Below are positions 3,278 to 14,235 of a stretch of DNA of 64,000 nucleotides, piece after piece. How positions within the stretch are numbered: the stretch's first letter is position 1; each line of letters begins with the position of its first letter. The stretch is from Glaciimonas sp. (GTDB taxonomy: Bacteria; Pseudomonadota; Gammaproteobacteria; Burkholderiales; Burkholderiaceae_D). A program made the position numbers and the translations under genes. Under the pieces are notes generated by a model that was not told the DNA's origin, made no database searches, and was given only the letters and a program-made list of their open reading frames with translations. The DNA lies in the NCBI GenBank assembly GCA_012927625.1, contig JABBOV010000012.1:62001-126000 (forward strand). Reading direction: 5' to 3'.

Positions 3278-4177
3278 ATGCGACTCGACCCTACTTCCCT
3301 GAATCTGTTTTTGAGCGTGATAGAAGAAGGCACGATTGCGGCAGCTGCGGAACGCGAGCACATTGCCGCTGCTGCTGTAAGCAAACGCCTCAGTGAGATT
3401 GAATCCATCCTCGGAACAAAATTGCTCACGCGCACCAACCGCGGCGTCGAGCCGACCAGCGCAGGCATAGCCTTATCGGCTCTGGCACGCCGGGTGCTAC
3501 ATGAACTTGACGATATTGCCGTGCAGATGCGGGAGTACGCTACAGGCATACGGGGTCAGGTCCGCATATTCGCGAACATCTCGGCGATCACGCAATTTCT
3601 ACCACGCGAAATCAGAGCTTTTCTGGCCGACTATCCGCATGTAAAGGTGCACCTTGAGGAGAAAATCAGCACCGTGATCACCAAGGCGGTTGAAGAAAAT
3701 TCTGCCGACATCGGCATCTTCACCGAAGAACCGAACGGGCGTAAACTGGAGTTGTTTCCGTATCATCGCGATCGTCTGGCCATTATCACGCCGAGAAACC
3801 ACCTGCTGGCAAGCTGCAATGCGCTGACGTTTGAGGAGACTTTGGACTTCGATTACGTTGGGCTCCACTCTGGCAGCGCGATCAACCGCCTCTTGCTAAA
3901 AAAGGCAACCGAACTGAACCGAAATATCAAACTGCGAATTCAGGTCACGAGTTATGACGCGCTGTGTCTTATGGTGGATTCTGGTTTGGGCATTGCTTTG
4001 TTGCCGGAAGCAGTTGCGCAGCAGTACGCCAGAATTCTGAGTATTTGCACTGTGCCGCTGGTAGAACCCTGGGCCGAACGAAAAATTACGATTTGCGTGC
4101 GTTCATTCGAAGCGCTTCCTGTGGCCGCTCAATTATTGGTTGGCCACTTGCGTGCGCAGGAGGGCAAGCCCGCCTGA
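3278..4177 (+). CDS. LysR-family transcriptional regulator
   Basis: 299 residues, the usual LysR length. The N-terminal winged helix-turn-helix (residues about 1-60, DPTSLNLFLSVIEEGTIAAA then AAVSKRLSEIE) is followed by a type 2 periplasmic-binding-like effector domain to about residue 292. It is divergent from the CoA-transferase/lyase/dehydrogenase operon, the usual position for its activator, so it probably senses the substrate or a CoA-ester intermediate of that pathway. The ATG at 3278 is chosen because the HTH begins straight after it. It converges on prpE, with only 17 bp between the two stop codons. Confidence 0.9.
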   Translation: MRLDPTSLNLFLSVIEEGTIAAAAEREHIAAAAVSKRLSEIESILGTKLLTRTNRGVEPTSAGIALSALARRVLHELDDIAVQMREYATGIRGQVRIFANISAITQFLPREIRAFLADYPHVKVHLEEKISTVITKAVEENSADIGIFTEEPNGRKLELFPYHRDRLAIITPRNHLLASCNALTFEETLDFDYVGLHSGSAINRLLLKKATELNRNIKLRIQVTSYDALCLMVDSGLGIALLPEAVAQQYARILSICTVPLVEPWAERKITICVRSFEALPVAAQLLVGHLRAQEGKPA

Positions 4178-4194
4178 CGCCATGCATCACCGAA

Positions 4195-6090
4195 TTAGTG
4201 CGGCGACCCCAGTGTTTCCTCGATTTGCTTAAGTGAAGTCGGGTCTTCAATCGAAGACATATCGCCCGGGTCGCGCCCTTCGCAAATAGCCTGGATCGAG
4301 CGCCGCAACAGTTTTCCGGAGCGGGTCTTTGGTAGCTGGGCAATGAAATACACACGGGCCGGGCGGGCTACTGCACCCAACTGGCGATCGACTACACCCA
4401 TGATTTCCTTTTCCAGCGCTTGCTGCGCCTGCGCTGTGTTGGCCGCTGCGGGATTTTTCAGGATCACGAAGGCAACGGCAACCTGGCCCTTGAGCTTGTC
4501 TTCGACCCCGACCACGGCAACTTCCGACACATTGGCATGACTGGAAATACTTTCTTCGATTTCCCGCGTGCCGAGCCGGTGACCGGCAACATTGATCACG
4601 TCATCAGTGCGGCCAAGGATGAAATAATAACCTTCCGCATCGCGAATGCCCCAGTCGAAGGTCGAATAGACATGTTTGCCGTTCAAAACGCTCCAGTAGG
4701 TACTGACATAACGCGCATCGTCGCCGTACACAGTCTGCATGCAGCCAGGTGGCAACGGGCCTTCGATCATGACCACGCCTTTTTCATTGGCGCCACATTC
4801 TTCGCCGGTCGTTTCATTAAACAACTTGACGTTAAATCCCGGGATCGGAACGCCAGGGCTGCCGAGCTTGGTCGGCATGTCTTCCAAACCTTTGGCGACC
4901 GATAGGATCGGCCAACCGGTTTCGGTCTGCCAGTAATTGTCGATAATGGGTACACCCAGGGCGTCCGAAATCCAGGCCGAGGTGGTTTCATCCAGCGGTT
5001 CGCCGGCCAGATACAGCGCCTTGAGCGAAGACAAGTCGTATTTCTGCATGAATTCTTGCGGCTGCTTCTTGAGCACCCGCACCGCAGTCGGGGCCGAGAA
5101 CATCCGCGTCACTTTGTATTTCTCTACGATGCTCCACCAGATACCGGCGTCCGGCAAGGTTGGCAAGCCTTCATACATGATAGTGGCCATGCCCGCGATC
5201 AGCGGACCATAAACGATATATGAGTGACCGACCACCCAGCCGATATCGGAAGTGGCAAAGTAAGTCTCACCCGGATTGCCGCAAAAAATATGCCGCATCG
5301 AAGAAGCCAGAGCAACTGCATAACCGCCGACATCGCGTTGCACGCCCTTCGGTTTGCCGGTAGTGCCAGAGGTATACAGAATATAAGACGGCTCATTCGA
5401 TTCCAGCCAAGTCACTGGCACCTGCGTATCCAGGTGTTGCGCGCGTAGCGCTGCGTAATCGACATCACGCCCTTCCACCAGGTTCATAGGAGCCAAATTA
5501 CGATTGACCAGCAGCACTTTGCCCGGTTTGTGGGCTGAAAGTGTAATCGCCTCATCCAGCAAAGGCTTATAAGGAATCGGCTTGCCGCCTCGGGAGCCGG
5601 CATCTGCAGACACGATCAGCTTGGGCTGCGCATCTTCGATCCGCGTGGCCAAGCTATGCGCTGCAAAGCCGCCGAACACGACCGAATGAATGGCGCCGAT
5701 GCGGGCACAGGCCAGCATGGCAAAAGCGGCTTCGGCGATCATCGGCATGTAAATCAGCACGCGGTCGCCCTTGCCCACGCCCAGTGTTTGCATGATGGCG
5801 GCCATGCGGCTGACTTCAGCTTGCAATTCCTTGAAGGAATAGACTTTCTCGGTTCCGGTTTCGGTCGAAATCGCGATCAGCGCGGCCTTGTCGCCTTGGG
5901 TGGCGGCCCAACGATCGACAGCGTTATGGCACAGATTGGTCTTGCCGCCAATAAACCATTGGGTGAATGGCGGTTTTGAATAATCGAGCACTTTCGAATA
6001 CGGTTGCTGCCAGTCGATCAGTTTGGCTTCGCCGTCCCAGAATGCTTGCGGTTGTTCAATCGAATTTTTATAAATATTTGCGAAATTCAT
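4195..6090 (-). CDS. prpE: Propionate--CoA ligase (propionyl-CoA synthetase)
   Basis: 631 residues from the ATG at 6090, which has a good GGAGAA ribosome site; an upstream in-frame start would add 40 residues taken from the palindromic repeat. AMP-forming acyl-CoA synthetase: the N-terminal ACAS domain carries FIGGKTNLCHNAVDRW, typical of PrpE rather than acetyl-CoA synthetase. The P-loop is YTSGTTGKPKG and the catalytic Lys lies in KTRSGKLLRRSI near the C-terminus. It activates propionate to propionyl-CoA, the entry to the methylcitrate cycle. It is the last gene of the prpBCDE array, separated from prpD by about 200 bp that hold a palindrome. A general acetyl-CoA synthetase is possible but less likely. 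Confidence 0.92.
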   Translation of the reverse strand: MNFANIYKNSIEQPQAFWDGEAKLIDWQQPYSKVLDYSKPPFTQWFIGGKTNLCHNAVDRWAATQGDKAALIAISTETGTEKVYSFKELQAEVSRMAAIMQTLGVGKGDRVLIYMPMIAEAAFAMLACARIGAIHSVVFGGFAAHSLATRIEDAQPKLIVSADAGSRGGKPIPYKPLLDEAITLSAHKPGKVLLVNRNLAPMNLVEGRDVDYAALRAQHLDTQVPVTWLESNEPSYILYTSGTTGKPKGVQRDVGGYAVALASSMRHIFCGNPGETYFATSDIGWVVGHSYIVYGPLIAGMATIMYEGLPTLPDAGIWWSIVEKYKVTRMFSAPTAVRVLKKQPQEFMQKYDLSSLKALYLAGEPLDETTSAWISDALGVPIIDNYWQTETGWPILSVAKGLEDMPTKLGSPGVPIPGFNVKLFNETTGEECGANEKGVVMIEGPLPPGCMQTVYGDDARYVSTYWSVLNGKHVYSTFDWGIRDAEGYYFILGRTDDVINVAGHRLGTREIEESISSHANVSEVAVVGVEDKLKGQVAVAFVILKNPAAANTAQAQQALEKEIMGVVDRQLGAVARPARVYFIAQLPKTRSGKLLRRSIQAICEGRDPGDMSSIEDPTSLKQIEETLGSPH

Positions 6091-6133
6091 GTCTTCTCCG
6101 GTGCCTAAAAGTGAATTTTTTGCATAGTTCGTA

Positions 6134-6189
6134 AGTAGTGCAGGCCTCTGTGCCTGCAACCAGAGGCAGGCACAGAGGCCTGCACTACT
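6134..6189. repeat. Long perfect inverted repeat in the prpD-prpE spacer (copy 1)
   Basis: Two 24-bp arms, 6134-6157 and 6166-6189, are exact reverse complements around an 8-bp loop. The arm core reads GTGCAGGCCTCTGTGCCTGC. A diverged second copy lies at 9384-9434 in the prpB-prpC spacer, where several arm changes are matched on both sides. There is no T-run after it on the minus strand, so it is not a plain intrinsic terminator. Confidence 0.9.
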
Positions 6190-6292
6190 GAAGTATTTTG
6201 CACAAGCCAAAGGTAAAAAAACGCGGCACCAAGTGAATGTGGCCGCGTTTTATATAACTGCATCTGCTATCGAAGGGAATCAGCTTAGTGAA

Positions 6293-7744
6293 TCAGATCA
6301 CGTAAAGATCAACGTATTCATGCACCGGCATCGCTTCCAGTGTGGCCTGGTCGAGCGAAATGTCGAGAATGGTTTTTTGTTGCTTGGCGGGAAATTGGCG
6401 TGCCAGGTTGGTCTTGAACTTGGCCTCCAGCAACGGAATACCATCGGTGCGGCGGCGTGCATGACCGATTGGATATTCAACGACGACTTCAGCAAACTTG
6501 CTGCCGTCATTGAATTCGACCGTCAAGGCATTGGCAATCGAACGTTTCGCAGGATCATGATAATCGGCGGTGAAAGCGGGATCTTCAACGCAGACGATCT
6601 TGTCGCGCAACGTGTCGATGCGTGGATCGGCGGCGACCTTGTCTTCATAGTCGGATGCAGTCAGGCGACCGAAAATCATCGGCATGGCAACCATGTACTG
6701 GATGCAATGATCGCGATCGGCAGGGTTATCCAACGGGCCTTTCTTGTCGATAATGCGGATGCAGGCTTCGTGGGTGCGGATTGTGACCTTCTTGATATCC
6801 TCAACCGATTTGCCGGCGGCCTTCAGTTGCGCGTGTAATGTCATGCCGGCTTCAACTGCGGTTTGCGAGTGAAACTCGGCCGGGAACGAAATCTTGAACA
6901 GCACGTTTTCCATCACGTAGGAACCGTATGGGCGCTGAAATTTGAACTTGTTGCCTTTGAACAGCACATCGTAGAAACCCCAGGTCTTGGCCGACAGTAC
7001 CGATGGATAACCCATTTCGCCGGTTTTTGCCATCAATGCCAAGCGTACCGCACGCGATGTCGCGTCTCCTGCAGCCCATGATTTGCGGGAGCCGGTGTTG
7101 GGCGAATGACGATAGGTGCGCAGTGACTGACCATCGACCCATGCCAGCGATACTGCATTGAGGATTTCGTCGCGGGACAAGCCCATCATCTCAGACACCA
7201 CTGCAGTCGAAGCAACCTTAACCAGGACAACGTGATCGAGGCCAACTTTGTTGAAGGAATTTTCGAGCGCGATACAACCTTGGATTTCATGCGCCTTGAT
7301 CAGGCCGGTCAAGACTGATTTCATGGTCAGCGGTTTCTTGCCGGCCGCAACCGCATTGCGTGAAAGCCAATCGGCCGTTGCCAGAATGCCGCCCAAATTA
7401 TCCGATGGGTGACCCCATTCAGCAGCCAGCCAGGTGTCATTGAAGTCGAGCCAGCGAATCATCGCACCGATGTTGAACGCGGCTTGCACCGGATCGAGCT
7501 GGAATTGGGTACCCGGAACCTTGGCCCCGTTCGGCACCATGGTGCCTGGCACAATCGGGCCCATGAGTTTTTTGCAGGCAGGATATTCGAGTGCTTCGAG
7601 GCCGCAGCCGAGCGTATCGATCAGACAGTTGCGGGCTGTGGTGTAGGCCACGCTGGATTCGATCTTGTAGTGCATTACGTAATCGACGATGTCGATTATT
7701 TCCTGGTCGAACTCGGTACGCACGTTTGAAATATGAGCAGACAT
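6293..7744 (-). CDS. prpD: 2-methylcitrate dehydratase (MmgE/PrpD family)
   Basis: 483 residues from the ATG at 7744, preceded by AGGAA; this equals the length I know for enterobacterial PrpD. The residues before this ATG in the longer frame look like spacer. The MmgE/PrpD fold covers the whole protein: [18 protein letters not shown] near 45-60, then the [20 protein letters not shown] region near 100, which is typical of true PrpD. It dehydrates 2-methylcitrate to 2-methylaconitate in the cytoplasm. No acnD/prpF pair was seen, so this locus uses the PrpD route. A lipoprotein gene separates it from prpC. Confidence 0.93.
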
Positions 7745-7766
7745 TGAGATTCCTGTTTTTAAAAAA

Positions 7767-8162
7767 TTAGCGGGTTTTACATTCATTGGCAAGCTGCTGG
7801 CCTGCCTTGGCATTCAACAGCATGGATTTGGCTGGAATTTGAATCCAGACATGGCCGCTGGCGGCATCTTCATAGCGCAGCGCACCGGTGGAAGTTGTAA
7901 CCGCTCGCAGCGGATACGAACGCCCTTTCCAAGCCACATTGATCGCATCAGGATGCTGCGGGTCGGCACTTACGTCGACTTGATTGCCTAGTTCACAACG
8001 AAAATTGCCAGCGATTAAAGCTGTTTTGGCAGACGCCGGCGATTGCAGCATCGGGATTGCAGCCAATGGCATTGGCTGGGTTTCCGATAACGGCACCTTG
8101 GATGCACAAGAGGCCAGCAAGGCAGTGAAAATCAGGGTGGATGTCAGTCTCAGGGCAATCAT
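7767..8162 (-). CDS. Small lipoprotein resembling MliC-type lysozyme inhibitors
   Basis: 131 residues. A lipoprotein signal peptide ends in the lipobox LLAS-Cys19. After a Pro/Ala-rich linker, a small domain runs from about 52 to 130 with Cys56 (NFRCELGN) and Cys128 (ANECKTR). Between them lie [11 protein letters not shown] and [10 protein letters not shown]. This pattern (Y/F-x-C near the start, a Ser/Thr-x-x-Gly-x-x-Tyr segment and a C-terminal Cys) is like the MliC fold that inhibits c-type lysozyme. The family call comes from pattern recognition and is uncertain. The gene sits between prpC and prpD in the same direction with short gaps (22 and 37 bp), where the classic operon has no such gene. 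Confidence 0.6.
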
Positions 8163-8199
8163 AATTTTCTCCAGTACCGATACGCGTTGGCCGGATTGG

Positions 8200-9351
8200 C
8201 TAGCGTTTGCCGATTGGTACGAATTTTAAATCGTCTGGGCCGACATAATTTGCGGAAGGACGAATAATTTTGTTATCGATGCGTTGTTCGATAATGTGCG
8301 CAGCCCAGCCGGAGGTGCGGGCAATCACGAACAACGGCGTAAACATTGCGGTCGGCACTCCCATCATGTGATACGACACGGCCGAAAACCAGTCCAGGTT
8401 TGGAAACATTTTTTTAATGTCCCACATCACCGTTTCCAGACGTTCGGCAATGTCGAACATCGCCGTCGAACCGGCCTCGGTAGACAAATTGTGCGCCACT
8501 TCCTTGATTACCTTGTTACGCGGGTCGGACACGGTATACACCGGATGCCCGAAACCGATCACGACTTCCTTGTTTTCAACGCGTTTTTTGATGTCGGCTT
8601 CGGCTTCGTCTGGATTATCGTAACGCTTCTGAATTTCGAACGCGGCCTCATTCGCCCCGCCGTGCTTCGGGCCGCGCAAGGCGCCGATCGCACCAGTGAT
8701 GGCAGAGTGAATATCGGAACCGGTGCCGGCAATGACGCGGCTGGTGAAAGTCGACGCATTGAATTCATGTTCGGCATACAGGATCAGCGAAGTGTGCATC
8801 GCCTTTTCCCATGCAGCGGACGGCTTCACGCCATGCAGCAGATGCAGGAAATGGCCGCCGATGGAATCATCATCGGTTTCAACTTCGATCCGTTTGCCAT
8901 TGGTGCTGAAGTGATACCAGTACAGCAACATGGAACCGAATGACGCCATCAGACGGTCGGCAATGTCGCGCGCACCTGGGATGTTGTGGTCATCTTTTTC
9001 TGGCAATGTGCAGCCGAGTACGGAAATACCAGTGCGCATCACGTCCATCGGGTGCGATGCGGCAGGCAGCGCTTCCAGCGCAGCCTTGACGCTGGCAGGC
9101 AGGCCGCGCAAGGATTTCAGCTTGGCTTTGTAGCCTTTCAGCTCGGCTGCGGTAGGCAGTTTGCCGTGTACCAGCAGATAGGCGATTTCTTCGAATTCGC
9201 AGGTATCGGCGATATCCAGAATGTCATAGCCGCGGTAGTGCAGATCGTTGCCGGTCTTGCCGACGGAACACAGCGCAGTGTTACCTGCAGTGACGCCGGA
9301 CAGCGCAACAGATTTTTTTGGTTTGAAAGCAACTGCTTGTGATTCATTCAT
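8200..9351 (-). CDS. prpC: 2-methylcitrate synthase
   Basis: 383 residues, the usual length for the short type II citrate synthase-like PrpC. Catalytic residues are visible: His230 in GPKHGGANE, His269 in GFGHPVY and the Asp in NLDWFSAV. The phrase [10 protein letters not shown] near 40-48 is typical of PrpC. It condenses propionyl-CoA with oxaloacetate. The AGGAG ribosome site lies about 9 bp before the ATG at 9351. It follows prpB after a 103-bp spacer that carries the second palindrome copy. A citrate synthase side activity is normal for the family. Confidence 0.95.
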
Positions 9352-9383
9352 TTTTTTAGTCTCCTAACGAAAAAGAATCAGTG

Positions 9384-9434
9384 TAGTGCAGGTCTCTACT
9401 CCTGCAACCGATGCAGGAGTAGAAACCTGCACTA
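9384..9434. repeat. Inverted repeat in the prpB-prpC spacer (copy 2)
   Basis: Arms 9384-9406 and 9412-9434 (23 bp) pair with one mismatch. They share the core GTGCAGG-CTCT-CCTGCAACC and the flank ACTACTGAA with the copy at 6134-6189. The three variable positions GTG/CAC in copy 1 are ACT/AGT here, changed on both arms so that pairing is kept. Confidence 0.9.
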
Positions 9435-9454
9435 CTGAAAAATACGCAAATATC

Positions 9455-10342
9455 TTATTTTTTCTGGGCTGCAAACAAGGCGTCCAGATGCTGCTCGAAG
9501 TCGTAATAATTGATGCGATCGTACAATTCCATGCGGGTTTGCATGGTGTCGACCACATTTTTTTGAGTGCCGTCACGGCGGATTGCGGTATATACGTTTT
9601 CGGCCGCCTTGTTCATTGCGCGAAAGGCCGACAACGGGTATAGCACCAGGCGAACATCGGCTGATTTCAACTCTTCCACCGTAAACAACGGCGTAGCACC
9701 GAATTCAGTGATGTTGGCCAGTACCGGCACCTTGACCGCAGCGGCAAACTTCTTGTACATCGCCAGCTCGGTAATCGCTTCCGGGAAGAGCATGTCGGCA
9801 CCGGCTTCGACGTAAGCGATGGCACGTTCCAGTGCGGACTCCAGCCCTTCGACTGCCAACGAATCAGTGCGCGCCATGATTACGAAATTCTCGTCGGTAC
9901 GGGCATCGACTGCAGCCTTGATGCGGTCCACCATTTCCTGCTTGCTGACGATTTCCTTGTTCGGACGGTGGCCGCAGCGCTTGGCGCCGACCTGGTCTTC
10001 GATATGCAGCGCGGCAGCGCCGAACTTGACCATCGACTTGACGGTGCGCGCGACATTGAACGCGCTGGAGCCAAAACCGGTATCGACATCGACTAGCAGC
10101 GGCAGGTCGCAGACATCAGTAATGCGGCGCACGTCGGTCAGCACATCGTCCAGATTAGAAATGCCCAGATCGGGCAGACCGAGCGAGCCGGCAGCGACAC
10201 CGCCACCGGAAAGGTAAATCGCCTTGAACCCGGCACGTTTGGCCAGCAGCGCATGATTGGCGTTAATCGCACCAATTACTTGCAACGGGGACTCTTCTTG
10301 CATCGCCTTGCGGAAGGCAGCACCTGCGGAATACAAACTCAT
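9455..10342 (-). CDS. prpB: 2-methylisocitrate lyase
   Basis: 295 residues, the typical PrpB length. An isocitrate-lyase/PEP-mutase superfamily TIM barrel with the diagnostic KRCGH motif at residues 121-125 (catalytic Cys123), metal-binding VDVDTGFG near 84-91 and HIEDQ near 113-117. It splits 2-methylisocitrate into pyruvate and succinate, closing the methylcitrate cycle. It is the first gene of the operon, about 40 bp downstream of the start site predicted from the sigma-54 promoter at 10395-10410, and divergent from prpR. Confidence 0.96.
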
Positions 10343-10394
10343 GTCTTCACCTTATCTGTTGAGAGGTTTCACTGACGCTAACTGCGCACTGTAT

Positions 10395-10410
10395 TGCAAT
10401 CGCCGTGCCA
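10395..10410 (-). promoter_or_regulatory. Sigma-54 (-24/-12) promoter of the prp operon
   Basis: The minus strand reads TGGCACGGCGATTGCA, an essentially perfect match to the sigma-54 consensus TGGCAC-N5-TTGCA as I know it. The GG-GC spacing is correct and transcription should start near 10384, giving a leader of about 40 nt to prpB. The divergent neighbour PrpR is a sigma-54 activator, which fits. Confidence 0.9.
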
Positions 10411-10530
10411 CATGGGCGGAAATGCCGGCATGCGCGCGTTAGAACTTTAAAAATACCTTGCGATTCATTAGCTTAAGAAGCTCATAGCGCAGCGTAGAGC
10501 AGCATGTCATTACTTAGTACAAGTAATTTT

Positions 10531-10600
10531 TGTTTCAAGCTACGTTACAATCATCGGCATATCTGAAACATTACAACCATATTGAAACATATTTGAAACA
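10531..10600. promoter_or_regulatory. Cluster of TGAAACA motifs, candidate PrpR operators
   Basis: TGAAACA occurs at 10564-10570, 10583-10589 and 10594-10600, and its reverse complement TGTTTCA at 10531-10537. This places direct and inverted copies 130-215 bp upstream of the predicted prpB start site, a normal distance for an enhancer-binding protein. The last copy touches the prpR start codon, so autoregulation is possible. The link to PrpR is inference. Confidence 0.55.
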
Positions 10601-12255
10601 TGCGCCCCAGTCCAAACTCCCACATCCAGAACGACAGCAACAAGGAAAAACCGGTCATCTGGACCGTTTCCGTATCGCGTCTGGCGGACCTGTTCCGTGA
10701 CATTACGCTGGAATACGACGATCGCGCCACCATCGAGCCGATTGATCTCGGTTTTGAAGATGCGGCACGCCATATCCGCGAGCGCATGGCAACGGAGCGC
10801 TGCGACGCTGTGATTGCCGCGGGCTCCAACGGCACTTATCTGAAGAGCCGCCTGTCGGTGCCGGTGGTAATCGCCAAGGCCAGCGGCTTTGACGTAATGC
10901 AGGCGCTATCGCGCGCGCGCAAGATCACGCCCGACATCGGCATCATCACCTATCAAAACACGATGCCGGCGCTGAAGGAATTTCAGAACGCATTTGGCTT
11001 TCGCATTGCGCAGCGCAAATATGCCACCGAGGAAGATGCCCGGGCCCAGATCAACGAACTCAAAGCGAGCGGCATCAAAGCCATCGTCGGTGCCGGCCTG
11101 ATTACCGATCTGGCTGCGGAAGCCGGACTGGCCGCAGTCTTCGTGTATTCGGCCGCGTCGATCCGGCAAGCCTTCGACGACGCGCTTGAAATCGCCAAAC
11201 TGACGCAACTGGAATCGCAGCGTGGGCGTGGCACACAGTTGGTTGCGGCTGCTGGTATACCTGAGACCTTGCGCGCCAAACACGGCATCACCGATTTGCG
11301 CGGCACATCAAGCGCTATGGAAGCATTGCGGCAAACCGTGGTGCTATACGCCAGATCCCCCGCCACCGTATTAATCCAGGGCGAAACCGGCACCGGCAAG
11401 GAACTGGTGGCGCAAGCGATTCACCGCGAAAATCCACGTATGGACGCCGGCAACCGGCCCTTTGTCGTTGTTAATTGCGGCGCGATTGCAGAATCCCTGT
11501 TGGAGTCGGAATTATTCGGTTATGAAGAAGGTGCATTTACCGGATCACGTCGTGGTGGGCACGCCGGACTGTTTGAGGCAGCCCATCGCGGTACGCTGTT
11601 TTTGGATGAAATCGGCGAAATGCCGCTGACGCTGCAAACCCGGTTGTTGCGGGTACTGGAAGAGCGTGAAATTGTGCGTGTCGGCAGCACCCGGCCGATT
11701 CCGGTCGATGTGCGCATCATCAGCGCCACCCATTGCGACCTGGAACAACGCATCCGCGAAGGGCGTTTTCGCGCCGACTTGTTTTACCGGTTGGCGGTGT
11801 TGCGCCTGACGCTGCCGCCACTGCGCGAACGCGGTGAAGATCTGGTTGCACTGGCAGTGTGGTGCCTGAAAAACGCGCTGGCCGCGCTCGGCGCCCGTCC
11901 GCATCCCAATCTGCAAGCAGAAATCAATGCGTGCGGTGGATTGCTGCAAAACTATGACTGGCCCGGTAATGTGCGCGAATTACGTAATCTGATGGAGCGC
12001 CTGGCGCTATTTTTGGCAGCCGAACCGCTACAAGCTATCTCGCCCGGCTTTGTCTTGAGAGTAGCGCCGGAGTTGCTGCAGGCGTCGGATTCAGCAATAA
12101 CGCGCCCAGCGCCTATCTTGGAACAACCAGCAATGACGCAGCTTGAAAACATTTACCAAACCCTGGCCCGATTCAATGGCAACCGCGCAGCGGCGGCCAA
12201 ACACCTCGGCATCAGCCGTACCACGCTGTGGCGCCGAACGCAGACTGGAGAATAA
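10600..12255 (+). CDS. prpR: Propionate catabolism operon regulator, sigma-54-dependent activator
   Basis: 551 residues. An N-terminal PrpR_N sensor domain (about 15-200, beginning [18 protein letters not shown]) would bind 2-methylcitrate. It is followed by a sigma-54 AAA+ domain with Walker A GETGTGKE (about 262), the sigma-54 contact loop GAFTGSRRG and the Walker B stretch [11 protein letters not shown] Fis-type helix-turn-helix closes the protein ([18 protein letters not shown]). Divergent from the prp operon it controls. No clear Shine-Dalgarno precedes the ATG at 10600, which overlaps a TGAAACA motif. The 3' end touches an AT-rich repeat at 12247-12330. Confidence 0.95.
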
Positions 12256-12330
12256 AGCATACTAGCGGCAGCATATTTCATTAACGCATATTTTATATGC
12301 GGAAATGCCCACATTTATTAGCATACTCCA
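12247..12330. repeat. AT-rich palindromic repeat with GGAG(T)AT ends (copy D)
   Basis: Lies between the convergent prpR and kup genes and overlaps the prpR stop. It carries the hairpin CGCATATTTTATATGCG near 12285-12301 and ends in GCATACTCC. The left boundary (CTGGAGAATA) is tentative. It resembles, with divergence, the elements at 25371, 36914, 54857 and 16181. Confidence 0.55.
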
Positions 12331-12357
12331 GCTATTTTAAATATGCTACGCAGGCAC

Positions 12358-14235
12358 TTAAATCTCGACCTGGGTACCCAGCTCGATAACCCGGTTAGCC
12401 GGGATGCGATAGTAGTCGGCCGCATCGCGGGCATTGCGCGACATGCCGACAAATAGTCGTTCGCGCCATAGCGCCATGCCGGAGCCCGGAGTGGCAATAA
12501 CGGTCTGGCGGGCGATGAAGAACGAGGTTTCCATCATGTTGAAATCGAACCCATATTCTTTCGATAATTCCAGCGCTTTGGGAATATCCGCCGTGTTCTT
12601 GAAGCCGTAATGCATATCAAGCTGGTAGCAATTGTGTCCCAAGTCATTAATTTGTATGCGCTCCGAAAATGGCACCCACGGCACATCGTGCTGATACACG
12701 GTCAGGAAAACTACCCGCTCGTGCAGCACCTTGTTGTGCGACAGGTTGTGCAGCATCGCATGCGGCACACCGTCACCCGGCCCACGCATGAAAATAGCCA
12801 ATCCTGGAACCCGTATCGGCGGGTCGGTAAATAGCGAAGCCAGAAAATCCTCCAGTGGAATTGCATGTTTTTGCAGATTGGCGCGCACCAATTCACGCCC
12901 ACGTTTCCATGTCATCATTACGACAAACATGATGCCGCCCAGCAATAACGGGAACCAGCCGCCATGCAGTATCTTCAGCGCATTGGCAGACAAGAATGCC
13001 AGATCAATCACGAAAAAGAAGCCGGTGGCGCCGATGCACAGCACAAGATTGTATTTCCAGTCGTAACGCAGGACAAAGAAAGACAGCATTGTGGTTGCTA
13101 TCATGGTGCCCGTCACTGCAATGCCATAGGCTGCCGCCAGGTTGGAAGAAGAATCGAAAGCAAGCACCGCCAAAGCGACTACGGACCACTGCAGCCAATT
13201 AACCAGCGGAATGTAGATCTGCCCGATTTCCTTCGAGGAGGTTTGAATGATCTTCATGCGCGGCAAAAAACCCAGCGCAATGGCTTGCTTGACCATTGAA
13301 TACGTGCCTGAAATAGTCGCCTGCGAAGCAATTATGGTAGCCACTGTGGACAAGACGATCAGCGGATAAATGCTCCAGTCGCCAAGTTGCTGGAAGAAAG
13401 GGTTTGAGACCGCCTCAGGATTACGCAACAACAAGCCGCCCTGACCTAGATAATTCAGCGCCAGTGCCGGAAAAGTGATGAAGAACCAAGCCATGCGTAC
13501 CGGCTTGCGGCCGAAGTGACCCATATCGGCATACAGCGCTTCGGCACCGGTCAAGGTCAGCACAATCGCACCCAGCGCGACAAAAGCGACCCAGCGGTTG
13601 TCATTGAGGAAATAGAGGGCATGCAGCGGGTTCAAGGCGGCGAGAATTTCCGGTGCGTCGATAATATTGACGATCCCCATACCGGCCAAAGTGGTAAACC
13701 AGACTAGCATGATTGGCCCGAACCATTTGCCGATGCCGGCGGTACCATTTTTTTGCAGCATATACAAACCGGTTAGCAACACCAGCGTCAAAGGCACCAC
13801 ATATGGCTTAAAAGTCGGCGTTGCCACCTCCAGCCCTTCCATTGCGGACAAGACCGAAATCGCTGGGGTGATGACACCGTCGCCAAAAAATAGTGCGGCA
13901 CCAAACATGCCCGTCACCAGCAGCGGGAAATGCCAGCGCGATAGCGGCCCAACTGAAGTCAAGGTCAGCGACAGCAGCGCCATGATGCCGCCTTCGCCAT
14001 GATTGTCGGCGCGCAGCACTAGCGTGACGTACTTGAGCGAGACCACCACAATCAAGCTCCAGACGATCAGGGAAACCACACCCAGCAAGTTGCTGTGGCT
14101 CAATGTAAGCCCGTGCTGCGCCGAAAAAACTTCTTTCATCGCATACAGCGGACTGGTGCCGATGTCTCCGTAGACAATACCGACGGCAGCCAAAGTTAAT
14201 ACCGCCAACCTGCTTTTTGGATTTTCTGAGGCCAA
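12358..14235 (-). CDS. kup: Kup-family potassium uptake permease
   Basis: 625 residues, the usual Kup length. The N-terminal signature GIVYGDIGTSPLYAMKEVF is unmistakable. About twelve membrane helices follow up to residue about 455, then a cytoplasmic C-terminal domain of about 170 residues starting near RVPGLAIFM. It imports K+ by proton symport in the inner membrane and belongs to the housekeeping potassium supply. It stands alone: the downstream neighbour prpR converges on it and the upstream gene is divergent. Confidence 0.95.
   Translation of the reverse strand: MASENPKSRLAVLTLAAVGIVYGDIGTSPLYAMKEVFSAQHGLTLSHSNLLGVVSLIVWSLIVVVSLKYVTLVLRADNHGEGGIMALLSLTLTSVGPLSRWHFPLLVTGMFGAALFFGDGVITPAISVLSAMEGLEVATPTFKPYVVPLTLVLLTGLYMLQKNGTAGIGKWFGPIMLVWFTTLAGMGIVNIIDAPEILAALNPLHALYFLNDNRWVAFVALGAIVLTLTGAEALYADMGHFGRKPVRMAWFFITFPALALNYLGQGGLLLRNPEAVSNPFFQQLGDWSIYPLIVLSTVATIIASQATISGTYSMVKQAIALGFLPRMKIIQTSSKEIGQIYIPLVNWLQWSVVALAVLAFDSSSNLAAAYGIAVTGTMIATTMLSFFVLRYDWKYNLVLCIGATGFFFVIDLAFLSANALKILHGGWFPLLLGGIMFVVMMTWKRGRELVRANLQKHAIPLEDFLASLFTDPPIRVPGLAIFMRGPGDGVPHAMLHNLSHNKVLHERVVFLTVYQHDVPWVPFSERIQINDLGHNCYQLDMHYGFKNTADIPKALELSKEYGFDFNMMETSFFIARQTVIATPGSGMALWRERLFVGMSRNARDAADYYRIPANRVIELGTQVEI

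Follow-up and report, generated by a model that had tools for sequence, protein, structure and literature searches.

Repetitive extragenic palindromic (REP) sequences arranged as inverted doublets, termed REPINs, have been described in Pseudomonas fluorescens SBW25 and E. coli as dispersed, hairpin-forming elements that are tied to REP-associated tyrosine transposases (RAYTs) and show compensatory changes between their arms (PMC3116915). Related descriptions concern GTAG-tagged REP families with a GTAG foot, a perfect stem and head-to-head dimers (Di Nocera et al. 2013, PMC3733652), the TnpA-REP subclasses 2.4 and 2.7 (BMC Genomics 2018, PMC6006769), and the REPtron Sm of Stenotrophomonas maltophilia, a perfect-stem REP that is bound and cleaved in a manner critically dependent on the sequence of its loop (Corneloup et al. 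2021, PMC8266576). Here we analyse a stretch of 64,000 nucleotides (the window) from Glaciimonas sp. (assembly GCA_012927625.1, contig JABBOV010000012.1, positions 62,001 to 126,000), in which two palindromes lie in the spacers of the prp operon. Both palindromes are, with high confidence, REPINs, that is, short non-autonomous elements composed of two inverted REPs. The covariation between their arms is, in the reading that we prefer, mostly a product of template switching during replication rather than of selection on the fold of the mRNA.

The elements share with those of SBW25 and E. coli the two inverted REPs, the hairpin, the dispersal, the tie to a RAYT and the compensatory arm changes, but they differ in the sequence of the REP, in a spacer so short that pairing can also extend over both REPs to give a single long palindrome, and in that the window genome lacks the cognate enzyme. 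The GTAG foot, perfect stem and head-to-head arrangement are those of the GTAG-tagged families, whereas the loops of the latter, of which 24 families are tabulated, are described as mostly very short and the loop here is 6 nt long and conserved across hosts. The DHVH, WQ and Y(I/V)MNNP motifs of the enzymes resemble those of TnpA-REP subclasses 2.4 and 2.7, although the search definition of that study provides for loops of 2-5 nt in short hairpins; the loop of REPtron Sm is 3 nt. The element is of an already known kind, and what is added is the missing cognate enzyme, the evidence from orthologues that the covariation is largely mutational, and the loop-conserved REPs. Literature searches with mostly open-access coverage (REPINs and RAYTs, REPs of Oxalobacteraceae, template switching in quasipalindromes) gave, among the matches listed, no account of this family and none of template switching in REPINs; a search for the string CCTCCGTGCCTG in print led to papers that, judged by their listing, concern human or viral cell biology or a hot-spring metagenome.

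Anatomy and dispersal of the prp palindromes

The two elements are laid out in the window as follows.

6135..6188, 54 bp: REPIN copy 1, in the prpD-prpE spacer, a near-perfect palindrome GTAG...CTAC
6135..6157, + strand: left REP of copy 1, GTAG-TGCAGGC-CTCTGT-GCCTGC, forming a small hairpin of -7.5 kcal/mol
6158-6165: inter-REP spacer of copy 1
6166..6188, - strand: right REP of copy 1, inverted, with the same loop subtype as the left (CTCTGT)
9383..9435, 53 bp: REPIN copy 2, in the prpB-prpC spacer, a near-perfect palindrome GTAG...CTAC
9383..9405, + strand: left REP of copy 2, carrying the ACT variant, unique among the 44 copies read in this genome
9406-9412: inter-REP spacer of copy 2
9413..9435, - strand: right REP of copy 2, carrying AGT, which matches ACT of the left arm

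The original prediction had placed these palindromes at 6134-6189 and 9384-9434; the palindromes themselves stand, with slightly different limits, and the blocks named as common to both copies (GTGCAGG, CTCT, CCTGCAACC and ACTACTGAA) were all found. The paired difference between the arms is likewise real, since copy 1 reads CTCT-GTG/CAC-AGAG and copy 2 reads CTCT-ACT/AGT-AGAA; one arm position of copy 2 is unpaired. As single-stranded DNA, copies 1 and 2 fold with energies of -32.9 and -25.8 kcal/mol, and none of 200 dinucleotide shuffles folded as well (z -10.9 and -12.3, respectively). Exact matches to GTAGTGCAGGNNTCT in the window are confined to the two palindromes, each on both strands; with up to three mismatches, the number of matches in the window is at the level of chance.

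The family extends through the window genome (G000; 3,809,254 bases in 25 contigs, 97.8% complete). A DNA search with copy 1 gave at least 79 matches at no fewer than 40 places, a lower bound because 40 of 67 first-look candidates were scored, and the pattern GTAGTGCAGGNNTC, when up to one mismatch was allowed, matched 120 times, compared with 16 for the reversed control. Sixty-three loci were read, 62 of them reached through searches or stretches together with the second window copy. Of these, 44 are two-arm elements (43 delimited by script, window copy 2 added by hand), 7 are a 28-bp GTAG...CTAC form, and the rest of the remaining 19 are gapped doublets, single REPs and possible chance matches. 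The consensus REP is GTAG-TGCAGGC-CTCCGT-GCCTGC, followed by a spacer (2-8 nt in 41 of the 44 copies) and the same sequence inverted; the base outward of GTAG is T in 79 of 86 flanks. By a mechanical test that involves no gene calling, 8 of 43 copies lie wholly within an open reading frame (ORF) of at least 100 aa on either strand. That two copies occur within 3.3 kb at prp is unexceptional, because other neighbouring places on contig C3 and on C14 are separated by 2.4 kb and 3.1 kb, respectively.

Two head-to-head inverted REPs that form a hairpin, GTAG at the outer end of each REP (in both window copies and in the family-wide pattern) and many dispersed copies are thus found together. The same REPs flank a RAYT-type gene in relatives (G002, G003, G081 and the named loci L145-L148), though not in the window genome. 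These features bear out one of the two readings offered by the original prediction, that of a REP-type element with a RAYT-like enzyme.

A half-element pattern, GTAGTGCAGGNNTSNNTGCCTGC, was searched for in 148 genomes, G000 among them, allowing up to one mismatch; its reversed control gave 0 matches in all of them. The pattern itself matched 92 times in G000 and 89, 130 and 1 times in the congeners G002, G003 and G001. Outside the genus there were 34 matches in G081, from another genus of the family and often in arrays, and 1 in G074; the other 142 of the 148 genomes had none. The search of the genome and its relatives that had been suggested as a check, made here by pattern and BLAST counts, returned numerous further copies in G000, G002 and G003. 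In G081 (Noviherbaspirillum), many REPINs are asymmetric, with left loop GTCCCT and right loop CTCCGT, and arrays surround the transposase gene (L088 950-2160, C7).

Several other repeats accompany the family. At three orthologous pairs (L208/L039, L173/L006, L164/L023), the 28-bp form occupies the site in G003 and an element of 48 or 54 bp the site in G000; this 'double foot' form is shared with PMC6006769, where a central deletion is proposed as its possible origin. Another repeat, some 230 bp long, has inverted ends GATGTTACGCA...TGCGTAACATC and what look by eye like 8-bp target duplications, and at its centre lies a REPIN or what is left of one (L022 1101-1326, L002, L020, L024, L027, L057 and L061; in G003, L166, L170, L176, L187, L210 and L213), and some REPINs may have spread as passengers of this repeat, which resembles a miniature inverted-repeat transposable element. 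A second palindromic host element, with GGACTTACGCAA-like ends and a central REPIN, was noticed at L163, L182, L190, L205 and L211 in G003 and at L026 and L051 in G000. When both host types are pooled, flanks are complementary at 5 of 43 and 10 of 48 sites, whereas among control points the figures are 2 of 258 and 0 of 285; L182 is under the threshold of this test. A third type of GTAG repeat in G000, the double-foot palindrome GTAGGGCGGGTGCAACCCGCCCTAC, adjoins a REPIN at L005 (about 1578-1602).

Orthologous copies and the source of the arm covariation

Covariation between the arms of a hairpin is usually taken as strong evidence of a functional RNA. In the 44 copies of G000, 24 pair cells depart from the consensus on both arms and are still complementary, whereas 2000 shuffles gave a mean of 4.5 (sd 1.9, largest 14); 49 cells differ on one arm. 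Among 53 copies of G003 there are 7 matched cells (shuffle mean 1.3, largest 6), 48 one-sided cells and 1 mismatched double, in sites picked by perfect pattern match and so biased to conserved copies. The arms therefore do covary, as had been claimed from the two window copies.

A comparison of orthologues gives a different picture. From long flank matches, 37 G000/G003 site pairs were picked, of which 7 were left out (deletion, gap, no doublet or contig end); 30 entered the count, from which a further 5 with arms gapped or lacking dropped out. The 25 usable pairs contain 42 one-sided changes, 10 compensated two-sided changes and 2 other doubles. At two pairs (L178/L045 and L207/L031), a C/G variant is present on one arm in G003 and on both arms in G000. 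The two species clearly differ in the orientation of the centre at L193/L055 (alignment score 16 inverted versus 0 direct); the inversion is less clear at L209/L033, where the 8-nt centre shows 2 mismatches when aligned inverted and 5 when aligned directly. Homogenisation of the arms and inversion of the spacer are two marks of template switching at inverted repeats (PMC8604942; PMC8794818). We prefer template switching as the main source of covariation because of the mixed-arm copies, the inverted centre and the mostly uncompensated changes between orthologues. In such near-perfect inverted repeats, template switching would copy one arm onto the other and at times flip the centre, as the mixed-arm copies and the inverted centre suggest; the remaining mutations would accumulate unpaired, and prp mRNA would be affected, if at all, only incidentally. 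If this is true, a mobile palindrome can mimic, through a mutational process, the signal of a functional RNA, as is suggested by orthologues that have one arm, both arms or the centre changed.

Several observations weigh against this explanation. Double changes number 12, compared with 1.9 expected under independent arms, and either selection on the fold or conversion between copies could yield such an excess. Two of the 10 compensated changes are supplied by L062/L175, a doubtful pair with unlike tandem forms, without which there are 8 compensated and 40 one-sided changes. Six of the 10 two-sided changes are transversions, while 32 of the 42 one-sided changes are transitions, a borderline difference (Fisher p = 0.052). 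For the mixed-arm copies to count as intermediates, the second change must have been gained in G000, and mutational loss in G003 would be another route to the same pattern; one-sided departures are divided almost evenly, 22 in G000 and 20 in G003.

By PrpC, G000 is 99% identical to G003, its nearest congener, and 94% to G002. The REPIN between prpD and prpE in G000 is cut in G003 to GGCCTGCACTAC (about 12 bp), whereas the G003 prp proteins are 98.3 to 99.5% identical to those of G000 (PrpD 99.2%, PrpE 98.3%). An element required by the operon would not be expected to be lost while these proteins remain near-identical. G000, G003 and G002 share the position of the prpB-prpC REPIN, which is not present in the spacers read in G001, G007, G008, G014 and G016. 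The spacer of G016 (L141, genus g14) holds, by eye, an unrelated long insert with palindromic parts.

These results bear directly on the other reading in the original prediction, a cis-acting mRNA element that tunes prpBC versus prpDE output, with the covariation reflecting selection on the RNA hairpin. Both copies do stand in the spacers of one operon, their RNA hairpins are predicted to be very stable (-50.1 and -45.9 kcal/mol), and double changes exceed chance. Against this, the family occupies dozens of places genome-wide, the prpD-prpE copy is ruined in G003, the prpB-prpC copy is missing in G001 and in the four other genera whose spacer was read, and no Rfam family reached its gathering score in a scan of 4000-12500, where only sub-threshold microRNA models matched (discarded as chance likeness between hairpins). 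We consider this reading very improbable; it does not survive as an account of the prp operon. Selection on the fold as the cause of the covariation is weakened more generally, because one-sided changes outnumber compensated ones by 42 to 10 and the compensated ones resemble arm-to-arm copying. Other copies do exist, but the arms in relatives change without compensation, which had been named beforehand as an outcome that would count against the selected fold. That the palindromes are transcription terminators or attenuators has a next to negligible probability: they are very stable, GC-rich hairpins in the spacers of co-directional genes, but neither is followed by a T-run or appears in the list of the terminator scan, and the prpD-prpE spacer has a separate T-run hairpin upstream. 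The earlier statements that no T-run follows and that a simple terminator is unlikely hold for the palindromes, although this separate hairpin had not been mentioned.

One could also envision that selection acting on the DNA substrate of transposition maintains the full-length hairpin. The stems of single REPs vary between phyla and are nevertheless fully paired, with GTRG and the loop kept, and compensatory changes are reported as common in REPINs by Bertels and Rainey 2011 (PMC3116915). However, G000, in which no cognate enzyme was found, shows 24 matched cells in 44 copies compared with 7 in 53 in G003 (two sets of sites selected in different ways), most changes between orthologues affect one arm only, and an inverted centre is hard to account for by selection; we regard this possibility as rather doubtful. 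Conversion between REPIN copies, or replacement of whole REPINs, would change both arms together and is supported by the recurrence of matched variants at arm positions 14 (10 cells) and 15 (6 cells) in G000. It is nonetheless unlikely, given that ACT/AGT of window copy 2 occurs in no other of the 44 copies read, that the spacer and unique flanks remain orthologous where the arms switch (L027/L170, L021/L216), and that mixed-arm copies exist. Template switching remains the explanation that we prefer, with these last two as its serious competitors.

A probable cognate transposase in sister genomes and loop-conserved REPs

Seven genomes were scanned with NF047646, the model for REP-associated tyrosine transposases. 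A RAYT-type gene directly flanked by the same REPs, which are dispersed in the genome, was found in G002 (contig C49, L102), G003 (C11, L099) and G081 (C7, L088). The three proteins contain a Y1 domain (Y1_Tnp scores for L102, L088 and L099 of 39.1, 34 and 39.6 bits; cut-off 23) and have in common, by alignment, DHVH and the tyrosine motif YxxNNP; identity to the G002 protein is 90% for the protein of G003 and 68% for that of G081. An acyl-CoA dehydrogenase gene, the same one in each genome, precedes the transposase gene in all three; a YchJ-like gene comes next in G002 and G003 and lies farther away in G081. According to published work on this class, a HuH single-strand transposase would recognise each REP as a DNA hairpin, through its GTAG foot, stem and loop, and would copy the REP doublet; the candidate substrate is taken to be single-stranded GTAGTGCAGGC-CTCCGT-GCCTGCA.

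The search for a RAYT that had been suggested for this genome thus gave a divided result, with the enzyme found beside the same REPs in sister genomes and no cognate found in G000. In G000, the protein most like that of G002 reaches 29% identity and is another RAYT, and at the acd-ychJ junction of G000 the two genes are separated by 20 bp that contain neither a transposase nor a REP. A cognate RAYT in the same genome, which is usual for REPINs and lies outside their definition by sequence, is therefore not found in G000. Nor was the enzyme found in G001 (best E 0.118), which has other genes in that interval. Loss in G000 is the simpler inference because the enzyme adjoins the same gene in two genera, and the REPIN population of G000 is probably an immobile leftover. 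The four genomes of one genus are, in effect, a small natural experiment on the persistence of REPINs without their enzyme, which is kept with 89 and 130 half-element matches, not found with 92, and not found with 1.

Movement of the element as a unit may be reflected in filled and unfilled sites. At L172, the REPIN is present in G003 and in G002 (the latter through a match split around the REPIN), and the site is unfilled in G000 and G001, whose sequences there are alike. A single insertion would need an added loss or recombination, because PrpC places G000 closer to G003 than to G002. At L182, the site is empty in G000, where the REPIN is absent together with another palindromic element that surrounds it in G003. 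L003 was rejected as a clean empty site, being filled in G002 and too diverged in G001, and the L165 site has other sequence in G000 that is not interpretable. By eye, the L172 REPIN of G003 lies at a gene end, where its GTAG foot seems to give the stop codon; G000 and G001 read further.

Some points count against the transposon interpretation. No movement was observed; the three RAYT-type proteins, at 74.9 (L102), 79.4 (L088) and 76 bits (L099), miss the 80-bit cut-off of NF047646; and current mobility in G000 is unsupported, as no cognate enzyme was found in an assembly whose 97.8% completeness leaves a small doubt.

Other RAYT genes were considered as partners and set aside. The own RAYT of G000 (C10:640339-640749; L014 1250-2110; NF047646 137 bits) is flanked by another GTAG REP family, GTAGGAGCGC...GGGCGCGAC, and by no REP of this family. 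The other loci of G000 that match the Y1 or RAYT models (L009 to L019) are without REPs of this family. Two RAYT-like genes of G003, L097 and L093, have a single family match about 0.2 kb and 1.2 kb away, respectively, on one side only; these matches were taken to be ordinary neighbours, maybe by chance. RAYTs scoring 191-204 bits to NF047646 occur in G001, G002 and G003 (L085, L086, L087, L092, L093), and no G000 match is equally strong. The transposase frame of G002 runs into the downstream REPIN (L102 1894-1956), so that its C-terminus is REPIN-encoded, and the RAYT-type gene of Noviherbaspirillum malthae (L147 1501-1923) is, as recorded, interrupted by an in-frame stop.

A search with the three enzymes aligned led to 18 loci in named genomes of several phyla, a set in which only relatives with one of two peptide patterns can appear. 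Hairpins composed of GTRG, a stem (at most one mismatch) and a 6-nt loop [CG]TC[CT][CGA][TC] were found in 10 of the 18, namely 4 from Oxalobacteraceae and 6 of the 14 others, and none in the other 8. There are 59 such hairpins, 22 of them in one array (L154), compared with a mean of 0.09 and a largest value of 1 in 100 block shuffles, a lenient null because the loop pattern was chosen after the data had been seen. Perfect stems include TGCAGGC, GCCCCGGC, CGACCGGC, GGCAGGC, GACAGGC, GTCAGGC and CGCTGGGC. In 13 of 15 stem-loop types with the triloop TCC or TCT (counted per locus), loop bases 1 and 5 are complementary (C-G or G-C), which hints at one more base pair inside the loop, a pair that the fold program does not draw. 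The loop type could not be treated as a single clade of the RAYT tree, which is poorly resolved (6 changes; 228 of 500 shuffles were as low).

A tentative synthesis, which we advance with less than even confidence, is that a RAYT lineage spanning several phyla reads a conserved 6-nt loop ([C/G]TC[C/T][G/C][T/C]) and a GTRG foot, leaving the stem free to drift by compensated change; that in Oxalobacteraceae the doublet turned into a symmetric long palindrome, whose arms were homogenised and whose centre was flipped by template switching; and that, after loss of the transposase, the orphan population looks young and covarying. The conserved loop and free stem yield a testable proposal for the recognition target of this RAYT lineage. 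This type of REP may have been passed over by the 2018 classification, because that classification defines short REPs by loops of 2-5 nt (PMC6006769).

The prp operon around the palindromes

The genes and the separate hairpin are listed below; PrpB, PrpC, PrpD, PrpE and the divergent PrpR exceed their NCBIfam equivalog cut-offs.

4195..6090, - strand: prpE, propionate--CoA ligase (NF007815, 1158.7 bits, cut-off 955)
6215..6254 (about), - strand: terminator-like hairpin with a T-run, directly after prpD in the prpD-prpE spacer, separate from the REPIN
6293..7813, - strand: prpD, 2-methylcitrate dehydratase (NF006943, 901.8 bits, cut-off 575); the true start may be downstream
8200..9351, - strand: prpC, 2-methylcitrate synthase (NF009006, 730.6 bits, cut-off 550)
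9455..10342, - strand: prpB, methylisocitrate lyase (NF008455, 551 bits, cut-off 353)

The terminator-like hairpin, which is kept in the alignment with G003 and may separate prpE from prpBCD, is outside the list of the terminator consensus scan, whose loop limit is 8. Between prpC and prpD, an ORF of 131 aa at 7767-8162 has, by eye, a lipoprotein-like start and is kept in G001-G003 at 77-98% identity.

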